A stretch of 64,000 nucleotides of DNA, taken from Balamuthia mandrillaris. Lineage: Eukaryota > Discosea > Longamoebia > Balamuthiidae. A program made the position numbers and the translations under genes. Positions 39,203-49,500 of this stretch are shown piece after piece (position 1 is the first letter of the stretch; each line of letters opens with the position of its first letter). The notes below the pieces were generated by a model. It did no database searches. It was given only the letters and a program-made list of their open reading frames with translations, and was not told where the DNA came from. The DNA is taken from assembly GCA_031835245.1 (NCBI GenBank), contig JAVKOQ010000240.1, positions 16,650 to 80,649 on the forward strand. The letters are read 5' to 3'.

Positions 39203-41322
39203 ATGAAGAAGGGAACGCCTCTTGCCCTGGCGGGACCGCGGCCGCTGTGTTGGTATTTCTCTTCGCACAGCGCCAAGGTGTCATGGACTCCTTGTTGTGC
39301 TCACTATTCCTCCTTCAAGTCTCCTCCTTCTCCTCCTACCTCTAGACGGCCTCCCCCTTCTCCTCCGCCGGCAGGAGGCCCAAGGGCTGGAGCCGGAGGG
39401 GAAGGAGACACACCCTCGACGGTGCGGCTGGCACAACAACAGGCCATTCTGGCCAAGAAGCTGCTTCCCTCTCCTTCCCTGGCCATGCCACCCGCACGCA
39501 TAAAGGCAAAAGTCTACGCGGAGGAGTCTTTGTCCCAACTCAAACAACAAATCAAAGGTTTGCTGCCATGTTGTGATTGAATTTGATTTTGTTTTTTTGC
39601 TGACAACAAATCATTTTTGAAACAAAAATATCAAAAAAGAGAGAGAACGTAAACGACAGCAACTGCAACTCGCCAAAGAGAGACATCGCGAGGCGCTCGA
39701 GAGGCAGGCCTTGGAGACGGCAGCCAGAAAAGCCGCACGGACCCAAGCCGGAGGCTTCCTCTTGCAACCTTCTGCTTCTTCTTCCTCCTCTTCCTCTCCT
39801 TCTTCCGCTTTCCCCATCTCTCTCAAAGAGGCAACGGCGTTTGCTAATGAATACGATGATGAAGCAGAAGGAGCCGAAGACGAAGATGAGGAAGAGGACG
39901 ACTACCTGCTGTTTGGTGAGGAGGATGAGGAAGATGAAGAGGATGAGGAGGGAGAGGATGAGGAAAACGACTTATTGGACTTTAACAAAACAATGCAACT
40001 GCTGAAAACGGATCCACAGCTGAGAAGGGACACTACTGGCAGCACCAAATACATCGAAGCGCCTCCGAGCTACGACAAACAGCTCCTTCAACGCTTCAAG
40101 CACGAGGAAAACCAGAAGGACGTGTTGCGCTCGTTCTCGAAAAAGAACAGAGGAGAAGAGGGGGATGAAGACGAATACTCGGAGGTGGAAGTCTATGGCA
40201 TGGATGCCAAACGACGGAGACAGCTGCGAGGAAGAGCGGCACGACGAGCTATACGAATGCAGAGGATGAAGAAGATCATGCGCCTGAGCAAACAAAACGG
40301 AGCTATTTTGGATACTACCACCGGTGACATAGAGATTACACTTCCATCCGTTAATAACGTTCTTCACAAAACGAACAACGCAAAATCACTTGTACCATCT
40401 CAGTTCTTGCATTACTTTTTGGACCCAGAGGCGCAAATCAAACGGCCTAGAGACAAGAAGTTGGAGGAGAGGGCCAAGAGGATGCAGGAACGGATGGAGA
40501 AGCATAAGTTTAGGGCCATGCGGCAGAAGAAGACGACCAGCCCCTACATTACGGATGCCAATGGAGAGGGTTTGACTCGAAGACAGATTCGAGTGGCCAA
40601 GTTTGTTCTCCTCTCTCTTACCCTCCCCTCCCCTTTCTCTCTCTCTCTCTCTCTCTCTCTCCTTGAATTAACACAACAAAAAATGCCCAGGCTGATATCA
40701 TCGGTGCTCCAAGCCATTATTTTCGAGCTGGAGGTGCCGGACATGCCGGCGCATGATATTTGGATCTCAAACGTGGAGGTCACCAGGAACATGCGCATCG
40801 CCAAGATTTATTGGGAGAGCACCAACAATGTCGATCTCATCGAGCAAGGTTTCTCCCCTCTATGCTTTTTTTCCCTCATCAATTTTCAAATCTATTTTTG
40901 CTGACACACTGTTGGTGTCCAATCATTTATCTGAAAGGCTTAACGAAGCACGCCCCAAGAATAAGAAGAATGTTGGCCCAACAAATCCAATTGAAGGAAG
41001 TGCCTGAACTCGTTTTCACCCGCGAGCGCGAATCCGACGAAGACATGAAGCTTGAAAAGTTATAATCCCTTCTCATTTCTGTTTTCTTCTTCGTTTCTTC
41101 TTTCCTCATTGTTTATTTCTTCTGTCTTCTTTTTTCCCTTGATCGTTACTCCTTCCCTTTTCCTAAAACCTTACTTCAACAACAACCAGAGTGATGCAAG
41201 AGATCAACGAGGTGGAAGGATGGACGGAGGAGGACGTGCAGCTCGGGATACGCCTCTTGGAAAAGAAAGAGAGGAGAGAGGAGGCGGAGAAACGAAGGCG
41301 GCAGGCAGCAGCCGGTTTGTGA
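39203..41322 (+). CDS. Mitochondrial ribosome-binding factor A
   Basis: A small-subunit rRNA maturation factor for the mitochondrial ribosome. The ATG at 39203 opens a basic, Ser/Pro-rich leader (MKKGTPLALAGPRPLCWYFS) consistent with a mitochondrial presequence. Exon 2 adds a basic helix, Asp/Glu runs and another long basic segment (RRRQLRGRAARRAIRMQRMK). The RbfA domain follows: LISSVLQAIIFELEVPD, DIWISNVEVTRNMRIAKIYW, and after an intron GLTKHAPRIRRMLAQQIQLK and VPELVFTRERESDED. These match RbfA strands and the C-terminal helix. An intron after KLEK joins in frame to VMQEINEVEGWTEEDVQLGI and stops at 41320-41322. A CT repeat lies in the intron at about 40,640. The protein is much longer than bacterial RbfA, as mitochondrial forms often are. 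Confidence 0.85.
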
Positions 41323-41535
41323 CTCGGAGCAACGCGCTGAAAGTTGGACAATCCGTGGCCGTATGTCGTTTCAAACCATGCAATTATTTTAACGAATCTC
41401 TCTTTTTAGGCGAGTTTCGCTATAAAAAGGTAATATTTGACGACCCTTTAACAAAGAAGCAAGGCTGCTCTCCCCCTCTCTCTAGGGTCCTGTCTCTCTT
41501 CTATGCATGATCGACGGAGAAAGCGGTGTTGATCC

Positions 41536-43591
41536 ATGCGGTTCTCGACGTTTTTGCGCTACTTTGCGGCGTTGATGGTGGTTGCATTGGCAGGCCCGAC
41601 TATGCTTTTCTTTTGTGGATCAACAGAAGAGGTGCGTGTCGAACCAAAATGTCCAATAGTGCCGGCCTCTTCCCCTTCTCCCTCGTCTACTCCAACAACA
41701 ACAGAGCCTAGGAGCATTGATCCCTACAACCTTTCTTTGCCCTCTTTGGTAATGTCCCTAGTACAAAGCGATGAGCCGGATCATGTGAAGGAGCTGCTGG
41801 ATCCAGTGTTACCCTCTCTAGTTACTGTGGTGTGGGTCAACCGAGAGAAGTTTTCCCACACTAAGACCGTTTTGGAGGACTGGTGGCGCAACGACCATCT
41901 TGGAATTCGCTGCATCTACGTTCTCAGCGGTCTGGAACAAGACTCTTTAGTGGAATGGCTGAAAGAGAAAGAACGAACTTTGGGCAAGGATCGCTTTACC
42001 CTGCTTGAAGACAACACTTTGCTTCCTCCTTTCGCCACTGTTAACGTTGCCTTGGAGCATGTTCGAACCAAATATTTTGTTGGTATTCATGCCGACACCG
42101 TAGTGGAGCCCCTCTCCCTCCATTACTTTCTTCGCAGAGCACTTCTCACGCCCGATGCTGTCGTCATCGATCCCATCATTTGGGAAGAGCATCTAGGAAG
42201 CCACGAGCTCATCCTTCACAGTACCTACGAGCTTCTCACAGCCTCCAAAACATCCGACCGCTCCTCCCTGGTTCCTCACTTTCTCCATCTTCCTCGACAG
42301 CATGTATCCATCTCCTGGTCCGCTTCCTCTACTTCGGATTCCATACGAGAGTTAACCAAAAAGTATGTTGCAACTCAGCCGATGACCGCGATGGGTGTGG
42401 AGTATCACTGCGCCTTCTTCGAGACTGCAGCGGCAAGACATCCCTACAAATTGCTAGACACCTTCGCCCCAGAGAACCCTCTTAACGCTGCTTTCGTGGT
42501 AGCGGAGATGAGTAGGATCATCGTGGTGGAGCCCCAGGCCATTGCCAAGTATGTCTTTCCGGAGGGTACCAATGTCATAGAGCAGGAGGATGTGTTCATG
42601 ATGATGTGGGCTTGGAGTCCTGAAATGGGTTATATTAGCAAGTACCTTCACATCGCACTTTCTCCTTATTGCTTGATCCTTTTATGATTTTTCCTTTTGT
42701 TTCTCCAGCTGTTATGCAGAGTCCAAGTTTGGTCACACTGCTGAGAATCCACGGTTCATGTTCTGGATACGCATGATCGGCTACCGCATGCGCGGCCTGG
42801 CCTTTGGAATAGGCACTGCAAAGGCTCTCCTCCCCGATCCTACCATCCAAACCCAAATGGTCATCGGAGCCTTTCTTCTGGTGGGCTCTAACCGTTTTCG
42901 TCTCTTCAACCCAGAAGAAAAAGGAGATTGGTTGGAGCCAAGAAAATTCTACTTGGAAGCGAAAAACGCTACTTACGCCTCTTCGACACCAACCCCTGTC
43001 CAGATGGAGTTTGCTCAAAAGAAGGACCTATTCATTCCGAAATGGAACGGAGAGCAAATGAAGAAATGGTTGGAACGCGTGGCCGTTCATGAAACGGAGA
43101 ATAAGAAACAGCACAAAGGATTCGTTATGCATAAGACGGATCGACTGAAGGTAGAAGGCTTTGACTGCAGCACTCAAACCTATCGCCAATACCATTTGTT
43201 GCGAGTGGATTTCGAGGTGGATGAAAGGGGGGACGAATCGGAGTGCCTATCCGCTCTTCCTTCTGTCTTTACGGCAGGCGCTTTCATCGTCATGGCCGTT
43301 CCAACAACGGACAATACCAAGGAAACTAGAGCCAAGAAGCTACGGCAACAGTTTTGGTTCGAGTTTCCTAACACATCAACAGAACAACAGTTTCTGGAGG
43401 AAGTGTTGCCAAGGGCGAAGATGCATGGAGGGCAGTGTGCGTTTGTGGAAGCTCAGAGCAACCCCACTTCGATCCTGTTGCCAACGATGGACGGAGCAGT
43501 GCGTTTGCTACGGTGGAAACATAATTTCAACTATGATGACTACACGGCGGCACTCGCCAGCCATATCATTCGTCCTCATGTTGTTGCCTAA
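41536..43591 (+). CDS. Type II membrane glycosyltransferase-like protein
   Basis: Two exons, 41536-42641 and 42709-43591, join in frame (YIS-N-CYAES) across a 67-base intron, giving 662 residues. The N terminus has a signal anchor (FLRYFAALMVVALAGPTMLF) followed by a Ser/Pro/Thr stem. The catalytic part looks like a GT-A fold: LVTVVWVNREKFSHTKTVLE, DHLGIRCIYVLSG, LLPPFATVNVALEHVRTKYF, then GIHADTVVEP, where the Asp in HADT sits where the metal-binding DxD-type motif is expected. EQEDVFMMMWAWSPE may supply a catalytic acid. The C-terminal half (PRFMFWIRMIGYRMRG onward) is conserved-looking with no named domain. Golgi glycan synthesis is the likely setting. Donor and acceptor are unknown. Confidence 0.68.
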
Positions 43592-43769
43592 GGGAGATTG
43601 CAGTGAAGAAAAGAACGAGACAGCAGCTGAGAACGCGAGACGAGAACTGGCGTTAAAAAAAAAAGAAACATACAAACCCCTATTTAATTTTTTGTAAACG
43701 AAAGAACAATAAGATACAAAAAGCCGTTTTGAACCTCCGAAGAAGACAGCCAGGAAGAAGAGGAGTGGG

Positions 43770-45462
43770 CTACTCGGAGGCAATTCCGGCAGAAGCCATC
43801 CAAGTCTGCACCAAACGTTCGCTCTTCAAATCCTCCAACTTCTCGCTAATCTTCACAAACTCCTCAAAGGAAATGCTGCCGCTTTTGTCCTCATCCGCAA
43901 AGGTAAACATCCTTTCCACATCGCTCCTCAGCTTCCTGCGATAATCCTCCCCTAGGCCTTCTCTCTGGAGGCGATGATGATAGGCCTGACTCTTCTCGGT
44001 CGCCAACAGCAGCTCCTCCAAGTCCAAAGAGCCGTTGCCATCTCTGTCCATATCGTTGAACAGCTGCCTCAGCTTTTGTCGTCGGATTATCTTCTTTAGG
44101 TCTTCTGAGACCGCACAAAACTCGCCAAAGTCTAGGACGCCGTTATGGTCCTTGTCGGCGTTTGCCATGATGGCATTCACCTCTTGTTGGACGAGAGCTT
44201 CTTTCAACTCGCCAAATGCATTAGCGATGGCAGCTCTGAGTTCGCTCACCTCAATGGTGCCGTTGCCATCCACATCAAAGTAGTTGAACATGCGATGAAG
44301 GTACTCGCTGTGAGCTTTACCAGATTGGTACTCTCTCATCATCCTCGTCATCTGGCCCAGGAACACAAACGTGAGGGTGAAGTGAGGTCCCAACCGCATG
44401 AACAGAGGGAAGAAGCCCTTGTAGACGGCGCCTATTCCTTCTGAGCGAGTGACCTTGAGGAACGCGTCGGCAGGATTGACGTAAAGGAGTCCTCTTTTGG
44501 TGACAGGGTCCACCGGTTGGTTATACATTCTCGTGCGGATGGTGTCGATTGGTGTGATTATCACCACAGTTGCAAATGCTGATGCTAATGCGCATGACAT
44601 ATCTTATGTGTTTGTGGTTATGCGTCAGTGAAAAGCAGAACAGAAAGAAGAAGTGATGCGTAGAAACGCAGAAGATTATTTGGAGGGAGAGAAGCAAACA
44701 AACCAACTAAAGGTCCATCCGACATCAACTTGTATCGCTGCACGAGGTTCTCTTTGAGCATAGTAAAAGCAGTCATATTCACCGCAGTGGCCAACGTGGA
44801 ACGCCAGATGCTCAATCCGGTGCCAACATAGAGGCCCCTAATACCCTCGTTTCTCACGATGGCGGCAAAGCCATCGCACACTCCTTTGTAGTTGTGTTGA
44901 TGGCCGGTGGCTCGTTTGCCGCTAGCCTGCATGCGAGTTTTTAGGATCTCAAAGGGGTTGCAGGCGATGGCGCCTACAGCTCCTGAAATGCCTCCCGCTG
45001 TCATTCGTTTCCATACTGGTGCGCCTATGGGTATGAAGTAAATGTAACACATAGGAAGAAAATGTAAGTTAGAGAGACAAGCAGCAATGCAGAGAAGCGA
45101 GTAGCAAAGAGAGCAGCGAAGATAGAGAAGCAGAGGACAAAGAGATGAGAAGAGAAGGACGAGAGAAAAATAGAAAACAAAAAAACCTTTGTCGTCTTTG
45201 GAGGTATGCAAAAGTTTAACGACAGGGTCATAGAGGCCAATACGAAAGCAGTTCTTGGAGCCTTCGCGAAAAAATGCCGTGACGAGGCCCTTCTCCAGGC
45301 CACGAACGCCCTCATGCTTGGCGATCTGCCGTATGCAGTCCCACATGCCTGAATAGAGTTTCTGTCCACTGGCGTTGAGCTCGCCTTGCAGCTGCAGTCT
45401 TACCTTTATGTTTGTGTTTTCAAAACAAAAGTGAGAGACCACAAAAAAAAAAAAAAAACGAC

Positions 45463-45554
<92 letters not shown>

Positions 45555-45771
45555 AACGACAAGAAAGCAAAGAAACAGAGGTATTGCGGTAGCATACCTT
45601 GGCGACGTCAAAAGGGTTGGTGAACACAGCGGCGAGCATCGGCGATGCCGAAGAGAACAGGAAGCCCGACCACTTGGGAACCACAACGGGCGGTGGGCAA
45701 AGCACGTCGTCCGGATGGGCCACATACCCCTTCGCACCCCCTGCTGCTGCTGCCGCCGCCGGTGAAGCCAT
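43770..45771 (-). CDS. Mitochondrial carrier with four C-terminal EF-hands
   Basis: A calcium-regulated inner-membrane transporter by prediction. Start is the ATG at 45771. Three carrier repeats: TNPFDVAKV then RLQLQGE (repeat 1), CNPFEILKTRMQ (repeat 2), TPIDTIRTRM (repeat 3). In the same final exon, directly after the last carrier helix (LGQMTRMMREYQSGK), come four canonical EF-hand loops: DVDGNGTIEVSE, DKDHNGVLDFGE, DRDGNGSLDLEE and DEDKSGSISFEE. All have Asp at position 1, Gly at 6 and Glu at 12. Carrier and EF-hands are in one uninterrupted 831-base open frame, so the fusion is not a splicing guess. Known calcium-regulated carriers (SCaMC/APC and aralar types) hold EF-hands at the N terminus; here they are at the other end. 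Introns: about 44615-44705, 45025-45185 and 45405-45597, the last with a GAAA repeat. Confidence 0.93.
45465..45555. repeat. GAAA microsatellite, about 23 copies
   Basis: Perfect GAAA (sense TTTC) repeat inside the first intron of the EF-hand carrier gene, bounded on both sides by CGACAAGAAAG. Confidence 0.97.
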
Positions 45772-45887
45772 CTCTCTCTGAATTGCTTTTTTTTTTGCTC
45801 GTCAACCTAGATGCCGTGACGACACGAAGAATTTAAGGAACCACCTTACAATTCATCAAAATTTTTCCAAGAAAAATTGCAAAAAAA

Positions 45888-46438
45888 ATGCAGAGAGATG
45901 AGGAAGAAGGTGAGCACGCTGATGCTCGAACGAGGAAGAAGACAGAGGCCGAACAACCTGGGGATGGTGGTGATGCAGGAGATGGACGGTTCAGCGAGGA
46001 GCAGGAAGAGGCGCTCCAGGCGCTACGAGACAGGATAAAAGAACTCCAAGACCAAGTACAAGCCAGAGCGGAGGAAGAAAAGTGAGTGCTCTCTCTCCTC
46101 GTCTCTTCTCTTGTTTTTTTGTGGCGCGTAACGTTAACAACGACTTGCTCCATTTGTTTTGTTGTTATTGTTGTGAATAAGAATGTATGACGCAGAGGCA
46201 AAGGACTACATGGAAGCACTCCACCAATACAACGAGCTAAAAGACATTGGGCAAATGCTTATGGGCAAACTTGGTATTCTATCCTTCCTTTTTTTTCTCT
46301 CTCTTCCTTCTTCTTCATGCTTCATACTTCGTTCTTCTTACCAAAGACCTACTACAAAAAAACAAATGAATAGCAACGTTGGAAGGTCTTTTGACAAGAG
46401 ACCTTTACGTCCGCTACGACCTCAAATGGGAAGATTAA
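45888..46438 (+). CDS. SWI5: Swi5 homologue (recombination mediator)
   Basis: Three exons, 45888-46081, 46182-46273 and 46374-46438, join in frame to a 116-residue protein. The N terminus is charged low complexity and a helix (EEALQALRDRIKELQDQVQA). The C-terminal half matches the Swi5 family: ALHQYNELKDIGQMLMGKLA, then TLEGLLTRDLYVRYDLKWED at the end. Swi5 works with Sfr1 to help Rad51/Dmc1 form filaments in homologous recombination. The size and C-terminal ending are typical. The gene is convergent with DNA-PKcs, 78 bases between stop codons. It is too split to show in any single open frame. Confidence 0.87.
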
Positions 46439-46516
46439 AAACAAAGGAGAAGAAAAAAAAAACCCTTGTTCCTACGTGTTGATGTGAACATCATGCATGA
46501 CAGAGACGGCCGTCTT

Positions 46517-49500
46517 CTAGATCCAAGGAGCCCATCCACCATACGTTCTTCCGAGTATGTTGGGGTCGGTGGCCTGATCCACCAAACAATCCACCTGTTC
46601 TTTCACAGAAGAGCACCTCTCTCCCACCATTCCTCTTATTCTTCTTCTTTGCTTCGTGGGTGCTGTCTCTGCTTTTGTCTTGTTCTTCGTATTCTTGTTG
46701 GCTTCCTCATCATCCTTTGCAAGAACGATCCTCTCGAGAGCAGACAAGTAAGGAGCTTCCGCGTGAACGCTTCCTCTCAGCTCTTTGACGGTGATATAAG
46801 CCGGGTTCATGCCTTCCAGCTTGAGGCGAGCGATTTCGATCTTTTCTTTGGGGAACCAATTGCTTCCTCCCTCTTCTCCTTCTTTTCCTTCCTTCCCTTC
46901 TTTTCCTTCTCCACTTTCTCCCATTTCACTGGAAGAAGAAGCAGCAGAAGACGAAGAAGAGGATGACGACGAAGAAGATGATGAAGAAGAAGCAGATGAC
47001 GACGAAGAAGCACCAGCTCCCTTTTGCTCACGCACAAGCCGACGTGAGAGTTTCACCCAATCGAGCAAAGGTTCTTTGATGAAGACATCCATCGTGTTGA
47101 GGAGAACATCTCGATTGTCGCGAAGGGCGGTTAACGCGTGCACCATGTTGTGCTTGAGGAGCCCCTCGTGGTCCAGCGGGAGAAGAAAGTTGGTCAGTTG
47201 GCGAGTTAAACGGAATGGCATTAGCTCGGGGATGGGGAGGAATTGAGTAGCTGTTCCGAATGCGTGACCAAAGTCGATTCCTATCAATCCACCTCTGGGA
47301 AAAGGAGAGAAGAAGAAGAAGAGAAGAAAGAGAGAATGGAAGAAGAGGGTTAAAATGGAACGGAGAAATAGCGATAGTAGAAGAGAGAGAAAAAAAAGAA
47401 AGAGGAGAAAGAGAGTACGTGGTGAGATCAAGAAGAAAGTTTTCCAAATGACGATCGCCAATTCCTGTTTAGTAAGAGAAGAACCATAAACTAAGTATCC
47501 ACAGTGGACAAAGAAAAAAACTCACAGGAAAGATCTTACCAATGATATACGAAGCAATGTTAAAGACGGAGAGAGAGCGTGCAAACTGGGAGCGAATAGA
47601 GAGATAAGCCTCTGGAGAGGAGGACAGAGCCACGATGCCCCGCTTCAACAAGTCCCATGGCAACAAGGAGTGTTGTTGCTCCACCTTGGCTTCCGTGTTT
47701 TCGGCAGTTGCATTCATGAACATCGCCTGATACAATGTAGGTAACGATTGTTGTGCCTTTGTGTTTTTAAAGTTAGAATTAATAATGTTGAGAAGAAAAA
47801 GCAGAATCAACAATACCTTAGCGGACTTGAGATACTTTGCAAAGGAGCGCAGCCACTGATCATGTATCTGGGCGGCCTGAATCTTCAAGATGCTAACTTC
47901 GGCCGGGTTCTTCCTCAAGTCCCTAGCAATCTCTTCCTCGATGATTTCCTTCAGCGGTCTCGTATCATTGAGCCACTGGATCATTCCCACTTTGGTCGTC
48001 ATTGGAACCACTTGATAGGTCTTTATGCTGAGCCCGCGTTTGTAACAAGTGGGCGAGGAGAGAAAGATCTCGTTCATGATGGAGAAGAGCTGCTGCACGC
48101 GTTGATCGAGACGCAAGTCCTCACCACCTTTTACTAAGTAGGGATAGTCTCGCTCGTCGTTACCGTGCATCTTGAGACGTTTGGGACGACGGAGGGAACC
48201 CATGACGAGGAGCTTAGGATCAAAGCTGGTGACCTTGATGTGGGTCTCTGGTTGAGGCTTGCAAAGCCCGCTGTATTGGCCCGGAAGTTCTATGTACTGT
48301 TTTTTTAAAGGAGAAAATAAAGTGATAATAAGCAAAACAAAAAAAGTACTGAAAGGCGGGAAATGCGAACTTCAGGACTGGATTGGTCTGATTGCTCAAA
48401 CTCGTTCAACCACAAAGAAAAATCCTGCAACTTCATGGCCTGTGTACGTTTCGGTTGCATCTTAGCCATCATCTTGGCACTGAAGTCACCCACCAGCTTA
48501 ACAAACGCGTTAAACTGCATGCGACAAAGCTTGGAGGCATCCTTGCCAAACGCGTTGTTGAAGAGGGTGTTCCATGCGGAGGCGAACTTCTTGTTGTAGG
48601 CACCGAGATGAGGGGCGGAGGGATTGAATACGTCTTCGTAGATTTGTTGGTGGAGGTGTTGGATCTTGCGGACATCTCTGCGTTTGTTCTTGATAAGAGG
48701 TTTCATGTCTTCCATCCAGTCCTTCCATCGATGTTCTTTTGTCACAAGAAAATGAGAAGAAACCTAAGAAACAAAGTAGCAAGGAGAGAGAAACAGAAGA
48801 AAAGGCAAAACCATACCAGGATTGGTAAGCTTTTCCAACGCTTCCACGAAGTCATTGAGAAGAGGATTGTGCAAAATTCTCGCCAGTTGTAACAGTGAAT
48901 ACGCTTCTTTCTTATGCCTTCCTTCTGATGACTCTCCTTCTCCTTCCTCTTCCAAAGAAGCTCGAGTCATTTGTTTCCAGTCCAAGTTTAAATGGTCCGT
49001 GCTGATACGAAACGGGAAGTAAAGGGCTTGAGGATAAGACCTCGCAATCTCCACCAACAAAGGAAGAATGCAGTCTTTCTCCGGCGACTTGTCAATAAGA
49101 GCCATCATTTGGGAGATCCATCGTATGAACATCCAACATGGAACTTGTTTTGCCGTTTTGGCAAAGAGGGCTTGCAAAACGTTTTCCTCTTTTTGTTTTT
49201 GTGTTTTTTTCGTCCCCATTTCCATAGTTGTAGAGGCATACGCTGAAAGAAGTTCGAGCAGACGCGGGAAGCGATCGCCGGCGCGAGTGTTGCCTAGTTT
49301 CATCGAAAGCAGCATGTGTTGGATGACCATGGCAGCATAGTTTTTCATCGTTGTGGTTTCTTTCTTTTCGCTTCCTGCTTCTTCCATCCATTTGAGGCGA
49401 TGATCGCAGAACAACGCCAACCGAAAGAGCGCGTCTGCAGTAGAAGTTACCTTTCTTTGTTCGTTGCGAGTTGTGGACAAAGTGGAAGAAGACGATGAAG

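Follow-up and report, generated by a model that had tools for sequence, protein, structure and literature searches.

A mitochondrial carrier with four C-terminal EF-hands in Balamuthia mandrillaris and a probable third calcium-sensor architecture in the SLC25 family

In a stretch of 64,000 nucleotides of the Balamuthia mandrillaris genome (contig JAVKOQ010000240.1, positions 16,650 to 80,649; referred to here as the window), one minus-strand gene at 45771-43770, with four exons and three introns, all GT-AG, has a predicted product of 514 amino acids in which a mitochondrial carrier of the SLC25 family is followed by four EF-hands. We consider it likely that this protein belongs to an old and unnamed third calcium-sensor architecture among SLC25 carriers, one that evolved separately and in which a carboxylate carrier would be regulated by a C-terminal sensor. 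The product is identical over its full length to an NCBI Balamuthia mandrillaris entry named 'Tricarboxylate transport protein' (P0001). Pfam identified three stretches of Mito_carr (201.4 bits), four of EF-hand_1 (90.5 bits) and two of EF-hand_7 in it, and the three Mito_carr repeats have PX[DE]XX[KR] motifs; the protein has the carrier fold of the SLC25 family. NCBIfam searches with P0001 and two relatives, P0003 and P0014, returned EF-hand matches only, all of them sub-threshold.

The original prediction of a carrier running into four EF-hands in one open frame was confirmed. Exon 4 (43770-44602, minus strand) is a single unbroken frame that holds carrier repeat 3, the four EF-hands, a C-terminal tail and the stop codon, and the open frame at 43770-44603, which contains neither a stop nor an intron, spans repeat 3 and all four loops. 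These loops, on the minus strand at 44241-44276 (residues 347-358), 44121-44156 (387-398), 44013-44048 (423-434) and 43860-43895 (474-485), are full and canonical, with the sequences DVDGNGTIEVSE, DKDHNGVLDFGE, DRDGNGSLDLEE and DEDKSGSISFEE, respectively. When the 184-residue module was shuffled 20,000 times, a single strict loop arose in 19 shuffles and two or more in none; since no shuffle reached even two, the four strict loops observed within 184 residues are far beyond chance.

We rejected the interpretation that there are two neighbouring genes here. It is extremely improbable that two such genes were falsely joined by assembly or gene prediction, as a single exon spans the joint both in the window and in a second gene copy on another contig (C469:28800-31600, locus L025), and the same order is found in relatives with transcriptome-style names. 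Four of these relatives (P0002, P0003, P0005 and P0014, with MMETSP or Trinity names) have the carrier and the EF part in one frame, which in their case counters the possibility of two separate transcripts. The C469 copy has the same structure and an intact frame. It differs from the window copy at 15 codons, nine of them silent; of the six others, three reflect the length of an alanine run and the remainder are G15A, V505M and I514V, with zero changes in EF-loop residues. These two loci are the only high-identity matches to the protein in the whole assembly, the next being other carriers and EF-hand proteins that match over partial length at 53% identity or less. The assembly itself seems to be partly duplicated, many carrier and EF-hand matches occurring on at least two contigs with equal or near-equal scores.

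Database searches place the window protein among a wider set of proteins. A protein search (best 120 of 269 matches) and a search with a 16-member profile (best 120 of 297) gave 135 proteins together; both were word-filtered, so that the distribution described here is a lower bound and absence from these matches is not proof of absence. A carrier followed by four EF positions was found in at least 16 of the 135, the window protein among them, and the 15 others have 35-48% identity to it over 90-96% of its length. This full design occurs in Amoebozoa, Glaucophyta, Holozoa, diatoms and a chytrid, and eight sources could be traced: Balamuthia, Gloeochaete (a glaucophyte, by the taxid in its header), Syssomonas, Pigoraptor, the diatoms Odontella, Thalassiosira and Seminavis, and the chytrid Synchytrium. 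PMC7147346 identifies clone Colp-12 as Syssomonas multiformis and clone Opistho-2 as Pigoraptor chileana, both of them unicellular organisms related to animals. That the arrangement might be peculiar to Balamuthia was therefore not borne out: the order is present in several supergroups, and its two halves appear to be co-inherited.

Reduced forms were found alongside the full design. In the chytrids and Blastocladiomycota (21 sequences, in our grouping) one or two loops can be recognised; most of the chytrid sequences retain one EF pair, and chytrid forms with a length of about 415-450 amino acids end near the close of the first pair. Three Physarum-type sequences (header prefix Phypoly) have one loop each. 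Cryptophyte-type sequences have a C-terminal extension in which a recognisable loop is absent, while those from Mortierellales and Acrasis are without EF loops. EF-bearing sequences from animals, plants or Dikarya were absent from the top 120 matches of both searches. The simplest history suggested by these sequences, whose deep branches are weak, is that a full module was present early and was later eroded and lost. A search with the module only (P0003 residues 305-505) returned P0003 and six EF-hand proteins for which no carrier domain is listed; limited by the word filter, it missed the other known members.

Separate trees of the carrier and EF parts, a check proposed with the original prediction, were made. 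Taken with the module scores and the correlation of carrier and module distances, they favour joint descent of carrier and module from a single fusion, the full-length members providing the clearest case. For the carrier, 83 of the 135 proteins were aligned (65 of P0001-P0085 and 18 of the 50 others). Ten partial or odd sequences, including the tandem BMCP-like P0015 and P0048, and ten near-duplicate Mortierellales sequences were left out of P0001-P0085, and four Balamuthia open reading frames (ORFs) were aligned and all removed before the trees were built, two of them (L001 and L004) being wrong frames. A quick tree and a careful tree were made, the careful one (77 sequences) also leaving out P0132, P0076, P0027, P0092, P0116 and P0086 as long branches or distant outgroups, although P0027 is a full-length member. 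The careful tree separates 63 family sequences from 14 OAC1/SLC25A34-like ones at 100/100, and each side of the family's deepest split contains full-length EF-bearing sequences. The same separation appears in the quick tree with weaker support (89-90), the outgroup sequence P0132 falling on the wrong side.

The 22-sequence tree of the EF part separates 16 modules from six Balamuthia EF proteins. In it the four diatom-type sequences group together as they do in the carrier tree, and the Balamuthia module stands beside the Syssomonas and glaucophyte-type modules with weak support (81/44). A hidden Markov model (HMM) built from the 15 other modules scored the window module at 173.3 bits, against 85.8 for the best other Balamuthia EF ORF, a calmodulin-like one; the comparison set comprised a chosen 21 loci and not every EF gene of the genome. 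Carrier and module pairwise distances are correlated (r 0.67, p 0.0002 for 16 sequences; r 0.44, p 0.008 for a thinned set of 11). These results bear on the alternative that EF domains were fused repeatedly to the carrier in unrelated lineages. EF modules are easily recruited, and the support for the split between the modules and the Balamuthia EF proteins is just 93/89; against this, 14 of the 15 other full-length modules outranked every Balamuthia EF ORF tested in a single-sequence search, the two sets of distances correlate, and the joint is found at a single position, in three length classes. Repeated fusion is in our opinion very unlikely, and a carrier and EF module shared by descent is what the data favour.

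Two groups of SLC25 carriers with EF-hands are already established, and the window protein belongs to neither. The SCaMC/APC proteins (SLC25A23-25) also combine an SLC25 carrier with four calmodulin-like EF-hands, and calcium control from the intermembrane space is proposed for both. In SCaMC/APC, however, the EF-hands are N-terminal, a linker helix lies ahead of the carrier, and the carrier domain is related to ADP/ATP carriers, as described in PMC6283063. Membership of this group was rejected, the EF loops of the window protein lying after the carrier at residues 347-485 and its carrier not being of the ADP/ATP type: among solved sequences its best matches were UCP2 (149 bits) and UCP1 (133 bits), against 66 bits for ADP/ATP carriers. 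The AGC proteins (aralar/citrin, SLC25A12/13) likewise have EF-hands fused to an SLC25 carrier and a helix at the C-terminal end, but their N-terminal domain has eight EF folds, of which one binds calcium, and is dimeric, according to PMC7611780. Domain order and carrier type also led us to reject AGC membership, the window protein having only about 30 residues before its first carrier helix. The contrast that had been drawn with the order in SCaMC/APC and aralar/AGC is thus upheld by the domain positions. A fusion independent of SCaMC and AGC is also likely, because both domain order and carrier type differ, whereas the fusion itself is shared by several supergroups.

Among the matches listed, the named relatives of the window carrier are of the OAC1/SLC25A34 and BMCP types. 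OAC1, SLC25A34 and SLC25A35 are among the closest (34-39% identity over about half of the protein) and, like it, have an arginine at each of contact points II and III. EF-hands are absent from the 14 such sequences used, and membership was rejected, since the window protein lies on a separate branch (100/100) and the contact point I pair is R/K-E in its family against Y-Q in all 14. UCP1, UCP2 and the UCP-like brain mitochondrial carriers differ from it in being without EF-hands; either the UCP or the OAC type may be the nearer sister, the two tandem BMCP-like sequences having been dropped before the trees were built. Carriers in which the EF-hands come first are also present in Balamuthia (on contigs C605 and C161, with a related one on C359), so that the textbook order and the carrier-then-EF order coexist in the same cell. 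The EF parts of these carriers scored 12-22 bits with the module HMM, an unfair comparison as they are short single-exon fragments. The claim that no standard family has the carrier-then-EF order still stands, both for the searched open-access literature and for database names, which conflict among members and near relatives (tricarboxylate transport protein, oxaloacetate carrier, kidney mitochondrial carrier and ADP,ATP carrier). No carrier with C-terminal EF-hands was found among the listed open-access titles and abstract starts, a scope that leaves aside subscription papers and preprints.

The cargo of the carrier probably consists of carboxylate-type anions, judging from the residues at its contact points. 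By alignment with UCP1, the window carrier has matching arginines at contact point I (R104, 45266-45268), contact point II (R205, 44801-44803) and contact point III (R307, 44394-44396), all encoded on the minus strand. In the 65 family sequences, contact point I is R in 55 and K in 10, while Y occupies it in 14 of 14 OAC/SLC25A34-like sequences. Contact point II is R in 61 of 65, the other four, of the diatom type, having L; contact point III is also R in 61, with three gaps and one D.

The predicted structure of the joint suggests how the sensor may be coupled to the carrier. In the AlphaFold2 model of P0001, the last transmembrane helix (TM6) and the entering helix of the first EF-hand form one continuous helix over residues 301-346 (44277-44414, minus strand), with block predicted local distance difference test (pLDDT) scores of 92-98 over residues 301-350 and 88.2 for the model as a whole; in the model of P0008 (pLDDT 87.1) the helix covers residues 289-330. 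R307 is separated from the first EF loop by 36, 40 or 43 residues in those 40 of the 65 family sequences whose linker is measurable, and these lengths are approximately whole helical turns apart. In the other 25 a recognised loop or the EF module is missing, or R307 is replaced or falls in a gap, and some of them may be faulty gene models. It can be proposed, tentatively and with more doubt than conviction, that TM6 and the EF1 helix act as a rigid rod in a third calcium-gated class that predates the split of Amorphea and Diaphoretickes and was lost elsewhere. Calcium would then move the gate directly, no plug being released, and lineages without such carriers would have lost the class.

A locking pin like that of SCaMC/APC is a further possibility, again a rather doubtful one. 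At low calcium a helix would leave the EF domain and plug the carrier, and the candidate pin is the C-terminal tail after EF4 (43773-43823, minus strand; residues 498-514), a short predicted helix with block pLDDT of 63-75. A tryptophan in the tail was found in 10 of the 16 full-length members. Tested for the amphipathic character of such a pin, seven tails had helical moments not clearly above those of shuffled sequences.

Several observations weigh against a single old, calcium-regulated carboxylate carrier. The deepest split of the family is weak, its two sides having support of 85/73 and 85/90, so that the old age of the family is tentative and transfer between lineages is conceivable. The Synchytrium module (P0028) reaches 44.0 bits, less than three of the Balamuthia EF ORFs, and several of these ORFs outscore the short chytrid modules (about 16-30 bits). 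Repeated fusion would allow both results, and shared descent of the chytrid forms hence depends on the carrier tree. The suggested cargo derives from three positions only, the alignments behind the P0001 and P0008 models are nearly the same, and the linker classes follow clades, so that they represent a few events and not 40. Finally, all four loops are at full score in just 6 of the 16 full-length members. The EF module might have lost its role in regulating transport and instead act in docking, in dimer formation or in the buffering of calcium. The ten full-length members with at least one imperfect loop would fit this, as would the Physarum-type and cryptophyte-type sequences that retain the C-terminal extension with one recognisable loop or none, and a 2025 review argues that regulation of transport is doubtful even for the sensor of AGC (PMC12410006). 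We consider a non-regulatory module unlikely, however, as the window protein has four full canonical loops that are the same in both gene copies, and four or nearly four are retained in the four diatom-type sequences.

A calcium-regulated carrier with a C-terminal sensor would be expected to work as follows. Both termini of SLC25 carriers generally face the intermembrane space, and the window protein, placed in the mitochondrial inner membrane, would have its two ends there. From this position the four-EF sensor could read cytosolic calcium, and calcium binding may act through the TM6/EF1 helix, so that passage of a di- or keto-carboxylate anion would be accelerated or allowed. Regulation of transport by calcium is suggested here from sequence.

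The remainder of the gene, all on the minus strand, comprises exon 1 (45598-45771), with the start codon at 45771, an N-terminal Ala-rich stretch and the first part of carrier repeat 1; intron 1 (45404-45597); exon 2 (45187-45403), with the rest of repeat 1; intron 2 (45025-45186); exon 3 (44704-45024), with repeat 2; and intron 3 (44603-44703). Intron 1 contains a long GAAA/TTTC tetranucleotide repeat at 45466-45557. A Swi5-like gene on the plus strand (45888-46440), for which a fragment joined by eye matched Pfam Swi5 with 54.3 bits, begins some 116 bases away from the carrier start codon, an arrangement of divergent transcription with a very short common interval. Beyond it, at 46517-48371 on the minus strand, is the C-terminal part of a PI3K-related kinase (PI3_PI4_kinase, 70.1 and 73.9 bits in two frames; FATC, 48.3 bits), whose kinase motif we take to resemble that of DNA-PKcs. 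Two plus-strand frames at 41536-43591 lie ahead of the 3' end of the carrier gene; the first matches Glycos_transf_2 only weakly, at 19.7 bits against a cut-off of 23.3, and the second has no Pfam match at E 0.01. Rfam gave no matches in 41000-49000.

The finding draws attention to a carrier family in which the names of members and near relatives conflict. With its different wiring, a third architecture would offer an independent natural test of EF-hand control over an SLC25 carrier and, if the interpretation is true, protists and early-branching fungi would have calcium control of a carrier that probably moves carboxylates.
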